The notes beneath the pieces were generated by a model that worked only from the letters and a program-made list of their open reading frames with translations, was not told where the DNA came from and ran no database searches. This document shows positions 591-20,480 of a stretch of DNA of 21,261 nt, piece by piece (within the stretch, counting starts at the first letter, position 1; every line of letters begins with the position of its first letter). Origin of the DNA: a virus. Position numbers and translations under genes: made by a program. The stretch spans positions 1-21,261 of IMG/VR virus record IMGVR_UViG_3300013102_000083; one strand, given 5' to 3'.

Positions 591-1091
591 ATGTCCAGCT
601 TGTTTGACAACATCATCGCGAGGGTTCTCACCGCCGAGGGCGGCTACCTGAGCCCCCAAGAAGCTGCGAAGCAGGGAGACCCAGGAGGGGAGACGAATTG
701 GGGAATCAGCAAGCGGGCATATCCCGACCTGGATATCAAGAATCTCACGCGCGCGCAAGCGGTCGAGATATACCGCAACGATTACTGGAATCACATCGAC
801 GGCGACAACCTCCCTTCTGCCGTCGCGTTCGCCATGCTCGATGCCGCCATCAACTCGGGATGGACGAAATCGATCATGTGGCTCCAGAAGGCGGCGGGCG
901 TCGCAGACGATGGAAAATACGGTCCCATCTCCAAGGCAGCCGTGAAAAAGGCGGACGCAGCCGACCTCATGCTGGTCATAAGCGCCGAGCGCCTGGAATA
1001 CATGACCCGCCTGTCCAACTGGCAGACCAACTCGAGAGGCTGGGCCCGCAGGATCGCCCAGAATCTTCGCTACGGCGCGGAGGATAACTGA
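591..1091 (+). CDS. Endolysin, glycoside hydrolase 108-type N-acetylmuramidase
   Basis: This 166-residue protein is a phage lysozyme of the GH108 family, which cleaves peptidoglycan glycan strands. The catalytic glutamate is E16 in the family motif EGGY (16-19), followed by DPGGETNWGIS (30-40), which fits the family pattern DPGGxTxxGI. Residues about 92-160 fit the peptidoglycan-binding tail of the family, including SRGWARRI (148-155). No signal peptide is visible, so release to the periplasm needs a holin, and the next two genes are candidates. The start is supported by AGGAG at 579-583, seven bases before the ATG. The gene is first in the operon behind the sigma-54 array, and its stop codon overlaps the next gene's start by one base. 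Confidence 0.92.
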   Translation: MSSLFDNIIARVLTAEGGYLSPQEAAKQGDPGGETNWGISKRAYPDLDIKNLTRAQAVEIYRNDYWNHIDGDNLPSAVAFAMLDAAINSGWTKSIMWLQKAAGVADDGKYGPISKAAVKKADAADLMLVISAERLEYMTRLSNWQTNSRGWARRIAQNLRYGAEDN

Positions 1092-1504
1092 TGGCCGCCC
1101 CGGAAGTCGCCATTGCCTCCGTCGTCACTGCGTCGGCGGCCACTGTCGTCCCCAGCCTCTTCGGATTCGACTCCTACATCATCGCGTTCATCGGGGTGCC
1201 CTTCACGGTCGTGGGGATGGCAGCGGCAGGCAGCCTGATGAGCTTCGCGTTCGGAAGCCCGGAGCCCAAGCGCCTGAAGCTTTTGTTCACGGCGGGCGCA
1301 GCCACCCTGATCGGAGCGGCGGCGGTGACCGGCATCCCAGCCCTCCTTCACATCAACCAGATCGCGGAGCCAGCGCAGCCCGTGGCCGGATTCTTCTATG
1401 CACTATTCACCCGATGGGCCATGCCCGTATTCATCGACGTGTTGCCGATGTTGATCCGCCGGTGGTTGAACATTCCCGAGAAGAAGCCCGGAGACACGCC
1501 ATGA
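1091..1504 (+). CDS. Hydrophobic membrane protein, holin candidate
   Basis: This 137-residue protein has at least two clear membrane segments (about 29-50 and 64-86) and weaker hydrophobic stretches near 5-22 and 98-120. The C-terminal tail is short and charged (RRWLNIPEKKPGDTP). Size, hydrophobicity and position directly after the muramidase suit a holin, which would permeabilise the inner membrane for endolysin export, but I see no family-specific signature. The ATG at 1091 shares its A with the muramidase stop codon, so translation is probably coupled. The next gene overlaps its stop by four bases (ATGA). It could instead be a holin partner or antiholin to the following membrane protein. 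Confidence 0.65.
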   Translation: MAAPEVAIASVVTASAATVVPSLFGFDSYIIAFIGVPFTVVGMAAAGSLMSFAFGSPEPKRLKLLFTAGAATLIGAAAVTGIPALLHINQIAEPAQPVAGFFYALFTRWAMPVFIDVLPMLIRRWLNIPEKKPGDTP

Positions 1505-2136
1505 ATCACACGAACGCCCCCACCGACGACCGTCCGATCAAGCAGATGGTCTCGGAGAAAATCCAGCGCGCGAAGCTGCACTTCTGGCCCTTCGTGCTGA
1601 TGGTCTTCATGATCATGGTGTTCTACGTCGCCAGCGCCACGATCCCGCCCGGCTGGACCACCTTCTGGCTGAGCGCGGCGAGCCTTGCCGTCACGGCCAT
1701 CACGGCGCTGGCGCGGCTGAACGACCTCGGGTCGGAGTTCAGCAGCAAGCGGTGGCAGGTCCGCCGGTTCGGACTGATGGCGGTCGGCGCCGCTGCGATC
1801 GGACTGATGATGGAGCCGATAATCGTCTGGCTGAGCGGCCATCCGATGGTGGACTTCCCCACTTGGCGCGAGGTCATGCTCCGGTTCGGGTTCGCGCTCG
1901 TCTGGATCACCACGCCGCATATGCCTCCGTGGTGGAGGTACATCAGCGGTCAGTACAAGACGGCACGGCAGGCCTCCATCGCGGCCGCAGCGGCGGCGGG
2001 AGTGGTCGGGCTCGATCCGAAGGACGACGCGCCGGTGATGGTGCGGCCGATGCCGTATCGTGACCCCAAGGAACTACCGCCTGACGTGCCGGTCGAGCGG
2101 AGACACGGCGGCGACCGCCGCGAAATTGACCTCTGA
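1501..2136 (+). CDS. Multi-spanning membrane protein in the lysis block
   Basis: I place the start at the ATG of the ATGA overlap with the previous gene; an in-frame ATG exists at 1414 but would run 91 bases deep into that gene. The 211-residue product has about four hydrophobic segments (29-47, 53-72, 90-112 and 124-138), a basic loop between the second and third (SSKRWQVRR, 81-89), and a long charged, proline-containing tail (171-211) that is probably cytoplasmic. I do not recognise a named family. Position between the muramidase and the peptidase suggests a second holin-type or lysis-regulating protein. A role in superinfection exclusion is also possible. Confidence 0.6.
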   Translation: MNHTNAPTDDRPIKQMVSEKIQRAKLHFWPFVLMVFMIMVFYVASATIPPGWTTFWLSAASLAVTAITALARLNDLGSEFSSKRWQVRRFGLMAVGAAAIGLMMEPIIVWLSGHPMVDFPTWREVMLRFGFALVWITTPHMPPWWRYISGQYKTARQASIAAAAAAGVVGLDPKDDAPVMVRPMPYRDPKELPPDVPVERRHGGDRREIDL

Positions 2137-2146
2137 GGAGTAGAGC

Positions 2147-2959
2147 ATGAGCCTGCAACCGCGCAAGAACTTCGGCTGGATCCCGCAACTGCCCGATCAC
2201 CGGGACAAACTGCTGAAGACCATGATCCCGGCGGTGCCTGTCTATGAAGGACCGCCGCTGCTGGATCTGTCCATGGAGCATAAGTTCCACGTCATGGACC
2301 AAGGCAATCTGGGAACCTGCGTACTCCACGCCACGGCCAGCGCGTTGGAGTTCACCCACGCCTCGGTGACCAAGAAAACTCTCCGGCGCGAGCTTGACTT
2401 TCCGGTCAGTCGCCTGTTCCTCTACTACGAGGCCCGGAAGGCCATCGACACGCTCGGAGAAGACAGCGGCTGCAACATCCGCGACGCCATGCGCGTCCTC
2501 TACAACGTGGGCGGCCCGCGCGAGAGCGGGTGGAAGTACGACGAGAGCATGTTCACCGTCAAGCCACCGGCCGGGGCGTACCGGAGCGCGCCGTATCACA
2601 AGATCACGAGCTACCAGTCCGTCGGCGTCAACCTCGCCGAGATGCGAACGGCTCTGATCAACAAGATGCCAATCGTCATCGGCGTCAGCGTCTTCGATTC
2701 CTGGCCGATGGGGCTGGGCCAGCCGGTCGTTCCGATGCCGGGCAACTACGAGTCGATGATCGGCGGCCATGCCGTCCTGGTCGTGGGATACGATGACGTC
2801 CAGCGGCGCTTCAAGTTCCTGAACTCCTGGGGCGAGGAGTGGGGAATGGGCGGCTTCGGCTTCATTCCGTACGACTACGCGGCGGATCCCCGGTTCGGCG
2901 ATGACTATTGGGTCCTCACCGACACCGAGTACAAGGAGAACATGACGCCAAGCACCTGA
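2147..2959 (+). CDS. Papain-like C1 family cysteine peptidase
   Basis: The 270-residue protein has the full papain-type catalytic set: oxyanion Gln52 and nucleophile Cys58 in DQGNLGTC (51-58), His208 in GGHAV, and Asn226 in NSWGEEWG. The N-terminal GWIPQLPDHRD (10-20) resembles bacterial C1A peptidases without a long inhibitory propeptide. No signal peptide or membrane segment is visible, so it acts in the cytoplasm, is released at lysis, or is carried in the virion. GAGGAG immediately precedes the ATG at a usable distance. Peptidases of this family are uncommon in phage late operons. Substrate and role are unknown: head or tail protein processing, host takeover and degradation of cell-envelope proteins are all open. 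Confidence 0.88.
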   Translation: MSLQPRKNFGWIPQLPDHRDKLLKTMIPAVPVYEGPPLLDLSMEHKFHVMDQGNLGTCVLHATASALEFTHASVTKKTLRRELDFPVSRLFLYYEARKAIDTLGEDSGCNIRDAMRVLYNVGGPRESGWKYDESMFTVKPPAGAYRSAPYHKITSYQSVGVNLAEMRTALINKMPIVIGVSVFDSWPMGLGQPVVPMPGNYESMIGGHAVLVVGYDDVQRRFKFLNSWGEEWGMGGFGFIPYDYAADPRFGDDYWVLTDTEYKENMTPST

Positions 2960-3018: not shown

Positions 3019-3333
3019 ATGAAGATGATGTTGCTTGCTCTGGCCTTGGTCTTCGTGTCCGCCGGTCTCGGTGGCTGCCAGTCCATGGGCCTGAATACCG
3101 ACCTGCAGAAGATCGAGGCGTCCTGCGCCACCGCCACCGCGGCCGTTAACACGCTGACCGTCGCCGACAAGGCCGGGAAGCTGACCGACGCGCAGCGCAA
3201 GGACGTGCTGAAAGCGATCAACGTGACCACGCCGATCTGCACCCAGGAAACGCCGCCCACGCTCGACGCCGTCAAGGAGCAAGCCTTCCAGGCTGCGATC
3301 ACGGCACTGAGCAGCCTCGCTGCGAAGTACTGA
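3019..3333 (+). CDS. Small phage lipoprotein
   Basis: The start at 3019 is set by the AGGAG just upstream and by the signal sequence it exposes; an in-frame start at 2908 would lie inside the peptidase gene. The 104-residue product begins with a lipoprotein signal (MKMMLLALALVFVSAGLGGC) ending at lipobox LGGC, so Cys20 should be lipidated and the mature protein anchored in the cell envelope. Two further cysteines (36 and 74) could form a disulfide. The mature part looks helical and is not proline-rich, so it does not resemble a classic Rz1 outer-membrane spanin. Next to the lysis genes it may be a spanin substitute or a surface-exclusion lipoprotein. No specific family is recognised. Confidence 0.7.
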   Translation: MKMMLLALALVFVSAGLGGCQSMGLNTDLQKIEASCATATAAVNTLTVADKAGKLTDAQRKDVLKAINVTTPICTQETPPTLDAVKEQAFQAAITALSSLAAKY

Positions 3334-3636: not shown

Positions 3637-4113
3637 ATGGGCACGATCAGCAAACTGCCAGCCGGGAAAAATTCCAACGAAAAGACGTTGGACGAACGCT
3701 TCGTGGAAGAATACCTGATCGACCGTGACCCCGTTTCTGCTGCAATCCGGGTCGGTGTGCGTCGCCAGCAGCTTGAAAACCGCGTCCGGACTTGGATGTC
3801 GAACCCGGACGTCCTGCGAAAGATCCGCGAGGCGACCGATGGCGCGGATATCGACTCGATGATCACCCCGCAGCGCGTCATGGCGGGCTTCATCGAGGTC
3901 GCGTTTGACAAAACGGCTCCGGCGGCCAGCCGCAACGCGGCGCTGCGAGAGCTGGCGCAGTTCAAGAAGATGTATCCGGAGAAGGAAGACCCGGATAAGA
4001 ATCGCACCTACGCGCGGAATGTCATGTTCGTGCCCGCCGCCCCATCGCTTGAAGATTGGGAGAAGGCGGCGACCGCGCAGCAGGCCACCCTCCGCGAGGA
4101 CGTGCGCAAGTGA
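3637..4113 (+). CDS. Terminase small subunit
   Basis: The 158-residue protein is the likely DNA-recognition subunit of the packaging motor. Residues about 19-64 form a helix-turn-helix-like stretch (FVEEYLIDRDPVSAAIRVG, then a basic helix RRQQLENRVRTWMSNP) typical of phage small terminases, where the fold binds the packaging site and the C-terminal helices oligomerise and contact the large subunit. A GGAAAAGGGG stretch precedes the ATG. The gene's stop overlaps the GTG start of the large terminase (GTGA), the usual coupled pair. Family assignment rests on fold-like pattern and position more than on a strict motif. Confidence 0.8.
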   Translation: MGTISKLPAGKNSNEKTLDERFVEEYLIDRDPVSAAIRVGVRRQQLENRVRTWMSNPDVLRKIREATDGADIDSMITPQRVMAGFIEVAFDKTAPAASRNAALRELAQFKKMYPEKEDPDKNRTYARNVMFVPAAPSLEDWEKAATAQQATLREDVRK

Positions 4114-17182: not shown

Positions 17183-18342
17183 CCACGACCAAGGGTGACG
17201 TTCAACTACTGGAGCCCGGCAACCTGATCGAGCTATTCGATCTGGACATCACGCCAATCGACCCGGCGGCGACGACCGAGCATTTCCACGGCTATCCCCA
17301 GGAAGCCAGCATCTGGTGGAAGGGAGTCGAGTACGTTCCGTGGCCGATCAAGGCCGAGGGCTTCCTCCGCACGGGCGACAAGCCGCCCACTCCCACTGTG
17401 ACCATCAGCAACATCGACGGCAGCGTGACTATCCTGTGTATGCAGTTCGATGATCTTGTCGGTGCAGTCTTGGTACGACGTCGGACGTTCGCCAAGTATC
17501 TCGACGCTGCCAACTTCGGAGGCGGCGCTGGCACGCCTGCTGTCCCGCCCACCTACGGGCCGGAGCTGATCACGAACAACACGTTCGCAGTCCTGACTCC
17601 GTGGGTGCAGCAGTCGGGCACGGTGACGTCTACGGGCACGGTGATGCGCGCCATGCGCGCGGGCGGCTCGCTGGGCCGTGGCCGCTACACGCTGAGCGGC
17701 CTGACCATCGGTGCCAACTACCTGCTGACGTTCGACCGCATCCTTGGAGCTGGCGGAGCGACCAATGGAACCGTGTCCATAGCGATCAGCGCTACCAGCG
17801 CGACCGGGGCCATTGCCACCGATACCGGGGCCACGACGTTGGGCCAGACGCTAGCGTTCACCGCAACGCAGACCACGCACTACGTTATGATGGACTCGGG
17901 TGCGGGATCCAACGGCGCGTATATGGACTACGACAACGTCTACTGCAAGCAAGTCATCGATCCTGGTAGCCCCGCCATCCCGGGCGGTGGATCGAACCCC
18001 ACGGCTGACCCGACCCAGGAATTTCCGAACGAAATCTGGTACGTCGAGCGCAAGGCCAGCGAAGATTCGCAGATGGTCAAGTTTGAGCTTTCGTCGGCCA
18101 TGGACTTCAACGGTGTCAAGCTGCCCCGGCGTCAGATCATTGCCAATCAGTGCTACTGGCAATACAGAAGCGCCGAGTGCGGCTATACTGGCGGCGCAGT
18201 AGCGGACATCAATGACAACCCGACGTCGGACATCAACCTCGACGCCTGCGCCAAGAAGGTACGTTCTTGCAAGTTCCGATTCGGTGATACTGGTGTGCTG
18301 AACTATGGCGGCTTCGCGGCCGCAGGGCTGATGCGTACATGA
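17179..18342 (+). CDS. Minor tail protein L-like with an inserted carbohydrate-binding-like domain
   Basis: The 387-residue protein has a lambda gpL-like frame: an N-terminal domain ending in RRTFAKYLDAANF (101-113), then, much later, EFPNEIWYVERK (281-292), LPRRQIIANQC (315-325) and SAECGYTGG. Four cysteines (325, 334, 357, 364) match the positions that in lambda gpL hold an iron-sulfur cluster. Lambda gpL is about 230 residues; the excess of roughly 150 lies at 114-276. It starts GPELITNNTFAVLTPW, ends YMDYDNVYC, and looks like a beta-sandwich of the CBM4/9 type between Gly/Pro linkers. Its role may be adhesion to surface glycans (inference). ATGA-type overlaps join it to M and K. Confidence 0.85.
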   Translation: MTTTKGDVQLLEPGNLIELFDLDITPIDPAATTEHFHGYPQEASIWWKGVEYVPWPIKAEGFLRTGDKPPTPTVTISNIDGSVTILCMQFDDLVGAVLVRRRTFAKYLDAANFGGGAGTPAVPPTYGPELITNNTFAVLTPWVQQSGTVTSTGTVMRAMRAGGSLGRGRYTLSGLTIGANYLLTFDRILGAGGATNGTVSIAISATSATGAIATDTGATTLGQTLAFTATQTTHYVMMDSGAGSNGAYMDYDNVYCKQVIDPGSPAIPGGGSNPTADPTQEFPNEIWYVERKASEDSQMVKFELSSAMDFNGVKLPRRQIIANQCYWQYRSAECGYTGGAVADINDNPTSDINLDACAKKVRSCKFRFGDTGVLNYGGFAAAGLMRT

Positions 18343-19097
18343 ACAAGAAACTACTAGAAGAGATTCATGCTCACATGATCTCGGAGTTTCCCCGCGAGGC
18401 TTGCGGCCTGCTGGTCGCCAACGGCCGGAAGCAGCGGTACGTCCCATGCCGGAATATGGCGACAAGTCCGAGCGAGCATTTTATCCTGAACCCCGAGGAC
18501 TACGCCGACGCCGAGGACAGCGGCAAGATCATCGGTATAGTCCACTCGCATCCGAACGAGGCCAGCCGCCCCAGCGATGCTGACAAGGCAAGCTGTGAGG
18601 CTACCGATCTCCCGTGGCATATATTCAGCGTCTACAAGATGCTAGACGAACCGGGCCAGCCGGTCAAGATCACGGGCGACACGGCCATCACCCCGACCGG
18701 CTGGGAAGCTCCGTTGCTCGGTCGTCAGTTCAGCTTCGGTACGCTGGATTGCTTCACGCTGCTGCGCGACTTCTACCATCGCGAGATGGGGATCGATCTG
18801 CCCGACTTCGACCGCACCGGAAAGGACAAGTTCTGGGAGCGCGGCGAAGACCTGTACATGGACAATTTCAAGAAGTTCGGATTCGTCGTGGCCGATGGCC
18901 CGATGGAAAAGGGCGACTTGATTCTCATGAACGTGCGGTCGCCAATCGTCAACCACGTCGGCGTGTTCCTGGGTGACGTGCATGGTGTCGGCAGCTACCT
19001 CTTCCTCCACCACCCCTACGGGGCTCTGTCCACCCGCGACGTCTACGGCGGATATTGGGCGGAGATCACCCGGTGTGTTCTTCGGTACGCAAAATGA
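18339..19097 (+). CDS. Tail assembly protein K-like, JAMM peptidase plus NlpC/P60
   Basis: A 252-residue two-domain protein as in lambda gpK. The N-terminal JAMM (Mov34/MPN) domain has Glu20 in REACGLL and the metal motif HSHPNEASRPSD (69-80; H69, H71, D80). The C-terminal NlpC/P60 domain has its catalytic Cys138 in GTLDCFTLL and His206 in NHVGVFLGD, with HHPYG (224-228) near the third position. In such phages the protein is a tail-tip component or assembly protease that can cut peptidoglycan during DNA entry. Both active sites look intact. It starts within the L stop codon and overlaps the first I gene by four bases. Confidence 0.92.
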   Translation: MNKKLLEEIHAHMISEFPREACGLLVANGRKQRYVPCRNMATSPSEHFILNPEDYADAEDSGKIIGIVHSHPNEASRPSDADKASCEATDLPWHIFSVYKMLDEPGQPVKITGDTAITPTGWEAPLLGRQFSFGTLDCFTLLRDFYHREMGIDLPDFDRTGKDKFWERGEDLYMDNFKKFGFVVADGPMEKGDLILMNVRSPIVNHVGVFLGDVHGVGSYLFLHHPYGALSTRDVYGGYWAEITRCVLRYAK

Positions 19098-19786
19098 ACC
19101 AGCTTCGTACCATCCGACTCTATGGGCGGCTGGGCGCGCTGTTCGGCCGTGAGCATCGGCTGGCCGTGGTATCGCCCGCCGAGGCCGTGCGTGCGCTGAT
19201 GGCCCTGAAGCCAGGATTTGAGAAATACTTGATGAACGCCAAGGACAAGGGCTTCGGATTCGCCGTGTTCCTTGGTAAGCGCAACCTTGCCGAGAGCGAG
19301 CTTCACAGCCCGGCTGGCAACGATGACATCCGTATCGCCCCTATCGTGTTCGGAGCGAAGTCGGGGTGGATGCAGATTATCGTTGGGCTGGTGATCATTA
19401 TCGTCAGCATGGTCATTGACTACTTCACCTACGGTGCGTTTGGTGAGGCCACCGGCTACCAGACGTACTATATGGGAATTACCATGATCATCGGCGGTGT
19501 AATCCAGCTGCTGATGCCGGTGCCGAAAGGTCCCCATTCCCAAGACCCCATCGAGAACCGCCCGAGCTATACGTTCAACGGATCGGTGAACACTCTGGCG
19601 CAGGGATACCCTGTTCCTCTGCTGTACGGCAAGGCGTTCACGGGCAGCGCGGTGGTCAGCGCTGGTATCTACGCCCAGGATAACATGAGCGTTCCCACCA
19701 CGACTTCGGTCACTGGCGGCGGTGGCGGGTCGCTTGGCGGCGGTGGCGGTGCGAACCGAGGAGACATGACAAGTGCAACTCTCTAG
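19094..19786 (+). CDS. Tail assembly protein I-like, copy 1
   Basis: ATG 19094 makes an ATGA overlap with K; the in-frame start at 19055 would be 43 bases inside K. The 230-residue protein has the gpI signature: LRTIRLYGRLGALFG at the start, then PAEAVRALMALKPGFEKYL, DDIRIAPIVFG, a hydrophobic hairpin (about 95-145, including MGITMIIGGVIQLLMP), and SYTFNGSVNTLAQGYPVPLLYG. The C-terminus is a glycine-rich tail followed by NRGDM. In lambda, gpI is needed for tail-tip assembly but is absent from the mature particle. It is followed, unusually, by a second related gene. Confidence 0.87.
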   Translation: MNQLRTIRLYGRLGALFGREHRLAVVSPAEAVRALMALKPGFEKYLMNAKDKGFGFAVFLGKRNLAESELHSPAGNDDIRIAPIVFGAKSGWMQIIVGLVIIIVSMVIDYFTYGAFGEATGYQTYYMGITMIIGGVIQLLMPVPKGPHSQDPIENRPSYTFNGSVNTLAQGYPVPLLYGKAFTGSAVVSAGIYAQDNMSVPTTTSVTGGGGGSLGGGGGANRGDMTSATL

Positions 19787-20480
19787 CGATCTTCGCACAA
19801 TCCGACTCTACGGTAAGCTGGGCGCTACGTTCGGACGGGTCCACCACCTAGCGGTGACGACTCCTGCCGAGGCTGTCCGCGCGCTGTGCGCCATCAAGCC
19901 GGGCTTCGAGAAGTTTCTCATGAACGCCAAGGACAATGGCCTTGGCTTCAGCGTGTTCGTCGGCAAGACTAATCTGTCGGCCGCAGAGCTTCGGAACACT
20001 GGCGCGGCTGGAGACATCCGCATTGCTCCAATGGTGCTGGGAAGCAAGAACGGTCTCGGTCAAATTATCCTGGGAGTCGTGTTGATAGTTGTGGGCGTCT
20101 ATATCCAGTACGAGAGCGGCGGTCCCAACTCGGCCTCCAACTATCTGTACGGAATGGGCATCAACATGATCATCGGTGGCGTCATGCAACTACTGGCACC
20201 CCATCCCAAAGACCGAAGCTCCAAGGACAAGGGCGACCAAGTCCCGAGCTACGCATTCAATGGCAGCGTCAATACGATGGCGCAGGGCAACCCGGTTCCA
20301 TTGCTCTACGGTAAGATGAAGGCTGGTAGCGCAGTAATCAGCGCTGGAATCTACGCCGAAGATAACATGACGATTCCTGACAATCCCACTGGCGGCACCA
20401 CGAATGTCTGGGGTAGGGTACTCCTGGCCGTGATGGGCGGTGGTGGCGGAGCCAACTTCGGAGATATGACTCATGACTAA
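19773..20480 (+). CDS. Tail assembly protein I-like, copy 2
   Basis: The GTG at 19773 is supported by GAGGAG at 19758-19763, and the gene overlaps copy 1 by 14 bases. The 235-residue product aligns with copy 1 end to end: about two thirds of the first 88 aligned residues are identical by eye, with the hydrophobic hairpin, the SYAFNGSVNTMAQGNPVPLLYG block and a glycine tail (GGGGGANFGDM) all kept. Copy 2 differs mainly in the loop around residues 105-125 and in an insert (TNVWGRVLLAV) before the glycine tail. It is intact, so both are probably made. Division of labour or a heteromeric tip complex is possible but unproven. Confidence 0.87.
   Translation: MQLSSDLRTIRLYGKLGATFGRVHHLAVTTPAEAVRALCAIKPGFEKFLMNAKDNGLGFSVFVGKTNLSAAELRNTGAAGDIRIAPMVLGSKNGLGQIILGVVLIVVGVYIQYESGGPNSASNYLYGMGINMIIGGVMQLLAPHPKDRSSKDKGDQVPSYAFNGSVNTMAQGNPVPLLYGKMKAGSAVISAGIYAEDNMTIPDNPTGGTTNVWGRVLLAVMGGGGGANFGDMTHD

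Follow-up and report, generated by a model that had tools for sequence, protein, structure and literature searches.

A xylellain-type C1A peptidase gene in a phage lysis cassette and its possible accessory role in lysis

Gene organization of the lysis cassette

The window analyzed here is the entire 21,261-nucleotide stretch of viral DNA taken from positions 1 to 21,261 of IMG/VR record IMGVR_UViG_3300013102_000083. All genes of its lysis cassette lie on the plus strand. The first gene (591..1091) encodes a GH108 endolysin of the N-acetylmuramidase type (PF05838, E = 3.7e-22; phrog_315 endolysin, E = 4.6e-45). The product of the next gene (1091..1504) is a holin/antiholin-like membrane protein by homology and hydropathy, with three hydrophobic segments, and it is homologous to AXL3_24 (E = 2e-12) and to the 'holin/antiholin class IV' of Stenotrophomonas phage Suso (E = 2e-4). 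The following gene (1501..2136) encodes a second holin-like membrane protein; tblastn matched it to the Suso 'holin/antiholin class I' (E = 4e-8) and relatives, and blastp matched its product to Suso holin I (E = 9e-18) and to a protein of the related contig L009 (E = 1e-41). A xylellain-type cysteine peptidase of the C1A (papain) family is encoded next (2147..2959; 270 amino acids), followed by a small lipoprotein with the lipobox LGGC (3019..3333), which from its sequence is a candidate outer-membrane lysis protein. Downstream of the lipoprotein gene lie a gene for an 84-residue protein and then terS, the terminase small subunit gene that marks the end of the cassette (3637..4113; PF03592, E = 4.6e-7; phrog_5334, E = 3.9e-19), succeeded by terL and the genes of the portal, a MuF-type minor head protein, the scaffold and the major head protein.

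In both the window and L009, the C1A gene is part of a holin-endolysin-spanin block whose genes are co-oriented and closely spaced. A preliminary description, made from the letters of this DNA, had assigned it to a lysis-packaging block. The lysis block stands, and the locus is best named a lysis cassette directly upstream of the terminase and packaging genes. The lipoprotein is not established as an o-spanin, its Rz-like spanin match being non-significant (E = 0.099), and no i-spanin gene was recognized in the window. Pfam and PHROG profiles gave no match between the lipoprotein and a protease inhibitor.

Farther downstream in the late operon, the gene at 18339-19097 encodes a lambda K type tail protein with JAB and NlpC/P60 domains, a second papain-fold enzyme. 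Each of two overlapping genes in tandem (19070-19786 and 19773-20480) gave a match to lambda tail assembly protein I (PF06805), and the two share similar long Gly-rich C-termini; a tail-assembly gene has been duplicated in tandem here.

Catalytic residues and predicted structure of the peptidase

The C1A reading frame begins with ATG, just downstream of a GAGGAG ribosome-binding site. Its product scores 39.8 bits against the Pfam Peptidase_C1 profile (PF00112; E = 6.9e-10, cut-off 20.7) and matches PHROG 16701 'peptidase'. Among solved structures, the best phmmer match is xylellain (PDB 3ois; E = 7e-43, residues 5-258). All 152 aligned homologues (77 viral and 75 cellular) share Cys58, His208 and Asn226, and Gln52 is kept in 76 of the viral and all of the cellular sequences. 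Q52, C58, H208 and N226 thus align with the Gln-Cys-His-Asn catalytic set of the family. Sequence and hydropathy analysis detected neither a transmembrane segment nor a signal peptide. The preliminary description had proposed an intact papain-like peptidase with these four residues and no signal peptide, and the Pfam match, the 3ois match and the residue conservation, together with the absence of a detectable signal peptide, bear it out. Within C1A, the protein belongs to a known subfamily, already recorded in tailed phages, of which it is a typical representative; judged from its sequence, it is an intact peptidase of the cytosolic type that is probably active. The dN and dS values between the window and L009 genes (0.46 and 0.87, respectively) are uninformative beyond weak constraint. 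A 275-residue reading frame antisense to the C1A gene is one of many spurious GC-rich frames and was rejected as unsupported.

An AlphaFold model of the peptidase was built from 111 homologues (mean pLDDT 89.0, pTM 0.89). The structure-based search for the nearest relatives that the preliminary description had suggested led to xylellain: 3ois ranked first with Foldseek (E = 5e-27) and with VIA-align 2 (Z 35.7, 251 residues, rmsd 2.7, 36% identity), the second-best structure in the latter having a Z of 26.5. The predicted fold is that of papain and is closest to xylellain. The xylellain of Xylella fastidiosa and the xylellain-like peptidases resemble the window protein in fold, catalytic residues, short N-terminal segment and length. 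However, xylellain is a cellular enzyme, whereas the window protein, which is about 33-36% identical to it, is encoded in a phage lysis cassette. The substrate of the cellular enzyme is not known, and plant proteins have been discussed as its targets (PMC12090721).

The window protein lacks a long propeptide and has instead a short N-terminal segment (residues 1-33) containing a GW.P.LPD.RD motif, which is conserved across the viral and cellular homologues. Structural alignment begins at model residue 1-2 for proenzymes (procathepsins B, K, L and H, pro-papain and procaricain) and at residue 33-35 for most mature C1A enzymes; for mature Der p 1 and Der f 1, it begins at 20. Therefore, residues 1-33 follow the course of a propeptide end. 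That there is no long propeptide, as stated previously, holds true, with the amendment that, in structural alignment, residues 1-33 correspond to the C-terminal part of propeptides. In the xylellain structure of Leite et al. 2013, part of the N-terminus reportedly blocks the active site, and we infer that the phage enzyme may be latent.

Occurrence in related phages and in the wider family

Phage relatives were found by portal and terminase searches of IMG/VR. Two contigs, L008 and L009, whose terL is 73% identical to that of the window, carry a C1A gene in the same slot (52% identity); these two copies are identical and were counted once. The cassette of L009 runs from an M15 endolysin through two holins, C1A, i-spanin and o-spanin to terS, and 4-bp overlaps join the C1A gene to the second holin gene before it and to the i-spanin gene after it. 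The L009 spanins match the annotated i-spanin (E = 5.5e-14) and o-spanin (E = 1e-18) of Suso. The contig L189 (terL 73%) is arranged as M15 endolysin, holin, holin, i-spanin, o-spanin and terS; an 11-bp overlap joins its holin gene to its i-spanin gene, and its 17.8-kb record gave no C1A match. Because L189 keeps the endolysin-holin-holin-i-spanin-o-spanin order without it, the C1A gene is an optional insert in the lysis cassette, and because that cassette is complete, the peptidase is not required for lysis as such. The C1A gene occupies the same slot beside differing types of endolysin. Upstream of the same holin pair, the endolysin has been swapped between GH108 (window, 591-1091) and M15, an L-alanyl-D-glutamate peptidase type, in the relatives (4553-5017 in L009 and 3565-4005 in L189).

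The Suso cassette consists of endolysin, holin IV, holin I, i-spanin and o-spanin. Its holins are homologous to those of the window, and its spanins are also common to L009. Suso and L189 are without the peptidase; the window instead has the GH108 endolysin, and its lipoprotein (3019-3333) occupies the place of the i-spanin/o-spanin pair of the relatives.

Sporadic presence in relatives, which the preliminary description had named as an outcome that would count against its proposal, is what we observed. The peptidase occurs in the window and L008/L009, and phages with the same lysis block (L189, L010/L190, L011/L191 and Suso) gave no C1A match. Among 49 contigs that extend upstream of terL for more than 3 kb, only L188, which is the same contig as L009, has the gene; IMG/VR records are often fragments, so that a missing gene can be asserted firmly only for the slot itself. 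The C1A gene was found in no cultured relative, and 50,697 phage records gave only three distant homologues.

These observations bear on the earlier proposal that the enzyme processes head or virion proteins or is packed in the particle. The late-gene position adjoining the terminase genes would suit such a role, and the head block offers no other prohead protease; as previously noted, none lies between the portal and capsid genes, where the MuF-type minor head protein and the scaffold are encoded. However, the enzyme belongs to family C1A, its gene stands outside the head block and upstream of terS, and it is sporadic among relatives with the same head genes. Although S77/S78 prohead proteases are present in the same phages as C1A relatives, 0 of 8 lie within 5 kb of them. 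Terminase genes (PF03237) are likewise not linked to the peptidase, with 2 of 11 within 5 kb against 1.7 expected. The C1 family peptidase predicted in the jumbo phage XacN1 is not among the enzymes reported in virions (PMC5852040); the window protein did not match it at E <= 0.05, which makes it at best a distant analogue. Consequently, we consider a part in head maturation or inside the particle to be very unlikely.

Relatives of the peptidase were found in at least 476 IMG/VR contigs and at least 495 genome contigs. Xylellain-type C1A genes in Caudoviricetes and Mimiviridae, and the acquisition of such peptidases from bacteria by Myo- and Siphoviridae, are described in the accessible part of PMC10380794. 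Given these contigs and the published acquisition by tailed phages, the preliminary statement that C1A peptidases are not standard in phage late operons needs amending. The genes of that report and PHROG 16701 belong to the same subfamily as the window protein; the accessible part gives neither their genomic context nor their function. They differ from the window and L009 enzymes, which form a two-member branch of their own on a long stem (99% SH-aLRT). The tree needs 16 changes between viruses and cells, although its strongly supported branches force only 2, and the interleaving of viral and cellular copies suggests repeated transfer.

The viral genes are almost always co-oriented with their neighbours (56 of 60 upstream and 54 of 62 downstream). 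In jumbo phages, relatives occur as single genes on the opposite strand, and others adjoin tail, head or replication genes. Tallies of neighbouring genes by PHROG and Pfam showed no dominant partner. With so many relatives at non-lysis positions, the family as a whole is not tied to lysis. In one jumbo phage (L002, the 595-kb uncultured LR756511; 7960-11853), two inteins with LAGLIDADG homing domains split the large subunit of ribonucleotide reductase. On a small Priestia megaterium plasmid (L005, 3989-5183), a C1A gene is directly followed by a gene for a chagasin-family I42 inhibitor, forming a protease-inhibitor pair.

The scattered distribution raises the alternative that the gene is a late 'moron': it would encode a cytosolic protease acting against host or competitor proteins (in defence, takeover or superinfection) and would sit in the lysis cassette, a common cargo site, only by chance. 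Its sporadic presence among the closest phage relatives, the unrelated positions of many homologues, including the solitary inverted genes of jumbo phages, the repeated transfer and the lack of a signal peptide all agree with this alternative. We regard it as a distinct possibility and as the main rival to the accessory lysis protease proposed below.

Association with lysis genes and a proposed role

The moron explanation accounts less readily for the company that the gene keeps. Small membrane protein or lipoprotein genes account for 15% of the genes within 3 genes of viral C1A genes and 8.6% of those further out (p = 0.003), and no such excess surrounds the cellular homologues. We also searched for six endolysin families in 50 phage contigs with C1A relatives, leaving out L009. 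The nearest endolysin was within 5 kb of the C1A gene in 10 of the 17 contigs having one, against 2.9 for random placement (P = 5.5e-5), with the qualification that some of these families were picked after the neighbourhoods had been inspected. For the least hindsight-chosen families alone (GH24, Amidase_2 and GH108), the count was 6 of 11 (1.6 expected, P = 0.002). Both figures are weakened by descent among the contigs and by incomplete contigs. The 4-bp overlaps with the holin and spanin genes in L009 also speak against mere cargo.

A further point against the moron explanation comes from Alicyclobacillus phage MMB025, in which an annotated endolysin contains a C1A domain of the same kind that retains Cys, His and Asn and is fused to glycoside-hydrolase-like and peptidoglycan-binding domains. 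Modular papain-fold endolysins (CHAP, NlpC/P60, C39-like lysin A and the C1A of MMB025) resemble the window in placing a thiol enzyme in the lysis module. In contrast to them, the window protein stands alone as a true C1A peptidase with no wall-binding domain; the peptidoglycan hydrolase of the window is the separate GH108 endolysin, and C1A is not known to cut peptidoglycan. The endolysin of BetterKatz is called 'cysteine protease-like'.

Canonical endolysins have no signal peptide and cross the inner membrane once the holin has been triggered. A leaderless, possibly self-blocked C1A peptidase in a lysis operon would fit the same route, by which it would reach envelope proteins only after triggering. 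We therefore propose, with a probability of about one half, that the peptidase is an optional, horizontally acquired accessory lysis protease. It would be translated late together with the holins and the endolysin, and would fold in the cytosol in a largely latent form with its N-terminal segment in the substrate cleft. When the holin opens the inner membrane, the peptidase would leave the cytosol with the endolysin and might then cleave protein links of the envelope, such as proteins bound to peptidoglycan, proteins of the outer membrane or lysis proteins of the phage itself, and could thereby make lysis faster or more complete. The lysis cassette may, on the other hand, simply tolerate extra genes, which is a point against a role in lysis. 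Action on host proteins, also suggested in the preliminary description, would form part of the accessory lysis role.

The immediate neighbours of the gene also bring up a regulatory function, in which the peptidase would trim the holin, the endolysin or the lipoprotein and thereby time lysis. The holins and the lipoprotein adjoin it in the window, where the peptidase and lipoprotein are present and a canonical i-spanin is not recognizable. However, the endolysin type and the spanins differ between the window and L009, leaving the holins as the only constant partner, and no phage example of such regulation was found. We judge this function unlikely.

Gram-negative lysis is taught as three steps carried out by three kinds of protein, namely holin, endolysin and spanin. 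A true protease in line with lysis genes, and near endolysins of unrelated phages, would add a proteolytic step if the accessory role is correct, and xylellain-type enzymes would gain a testable natural setting. It is conceivable, though doubtful, that holin-released, self-blocked xylellain-type proteases form a further class of lysis enzymes in many uncultured phages, dismantling protein links of the envelope. Neither a C1A gene between holin and spanin genes nor the endolysin link was found described in the searchable literature. Because the slots of L189 and L009 differ by the C1A insert alone, the contribution of the peptidase could be measured by expressing only the lysis genes.
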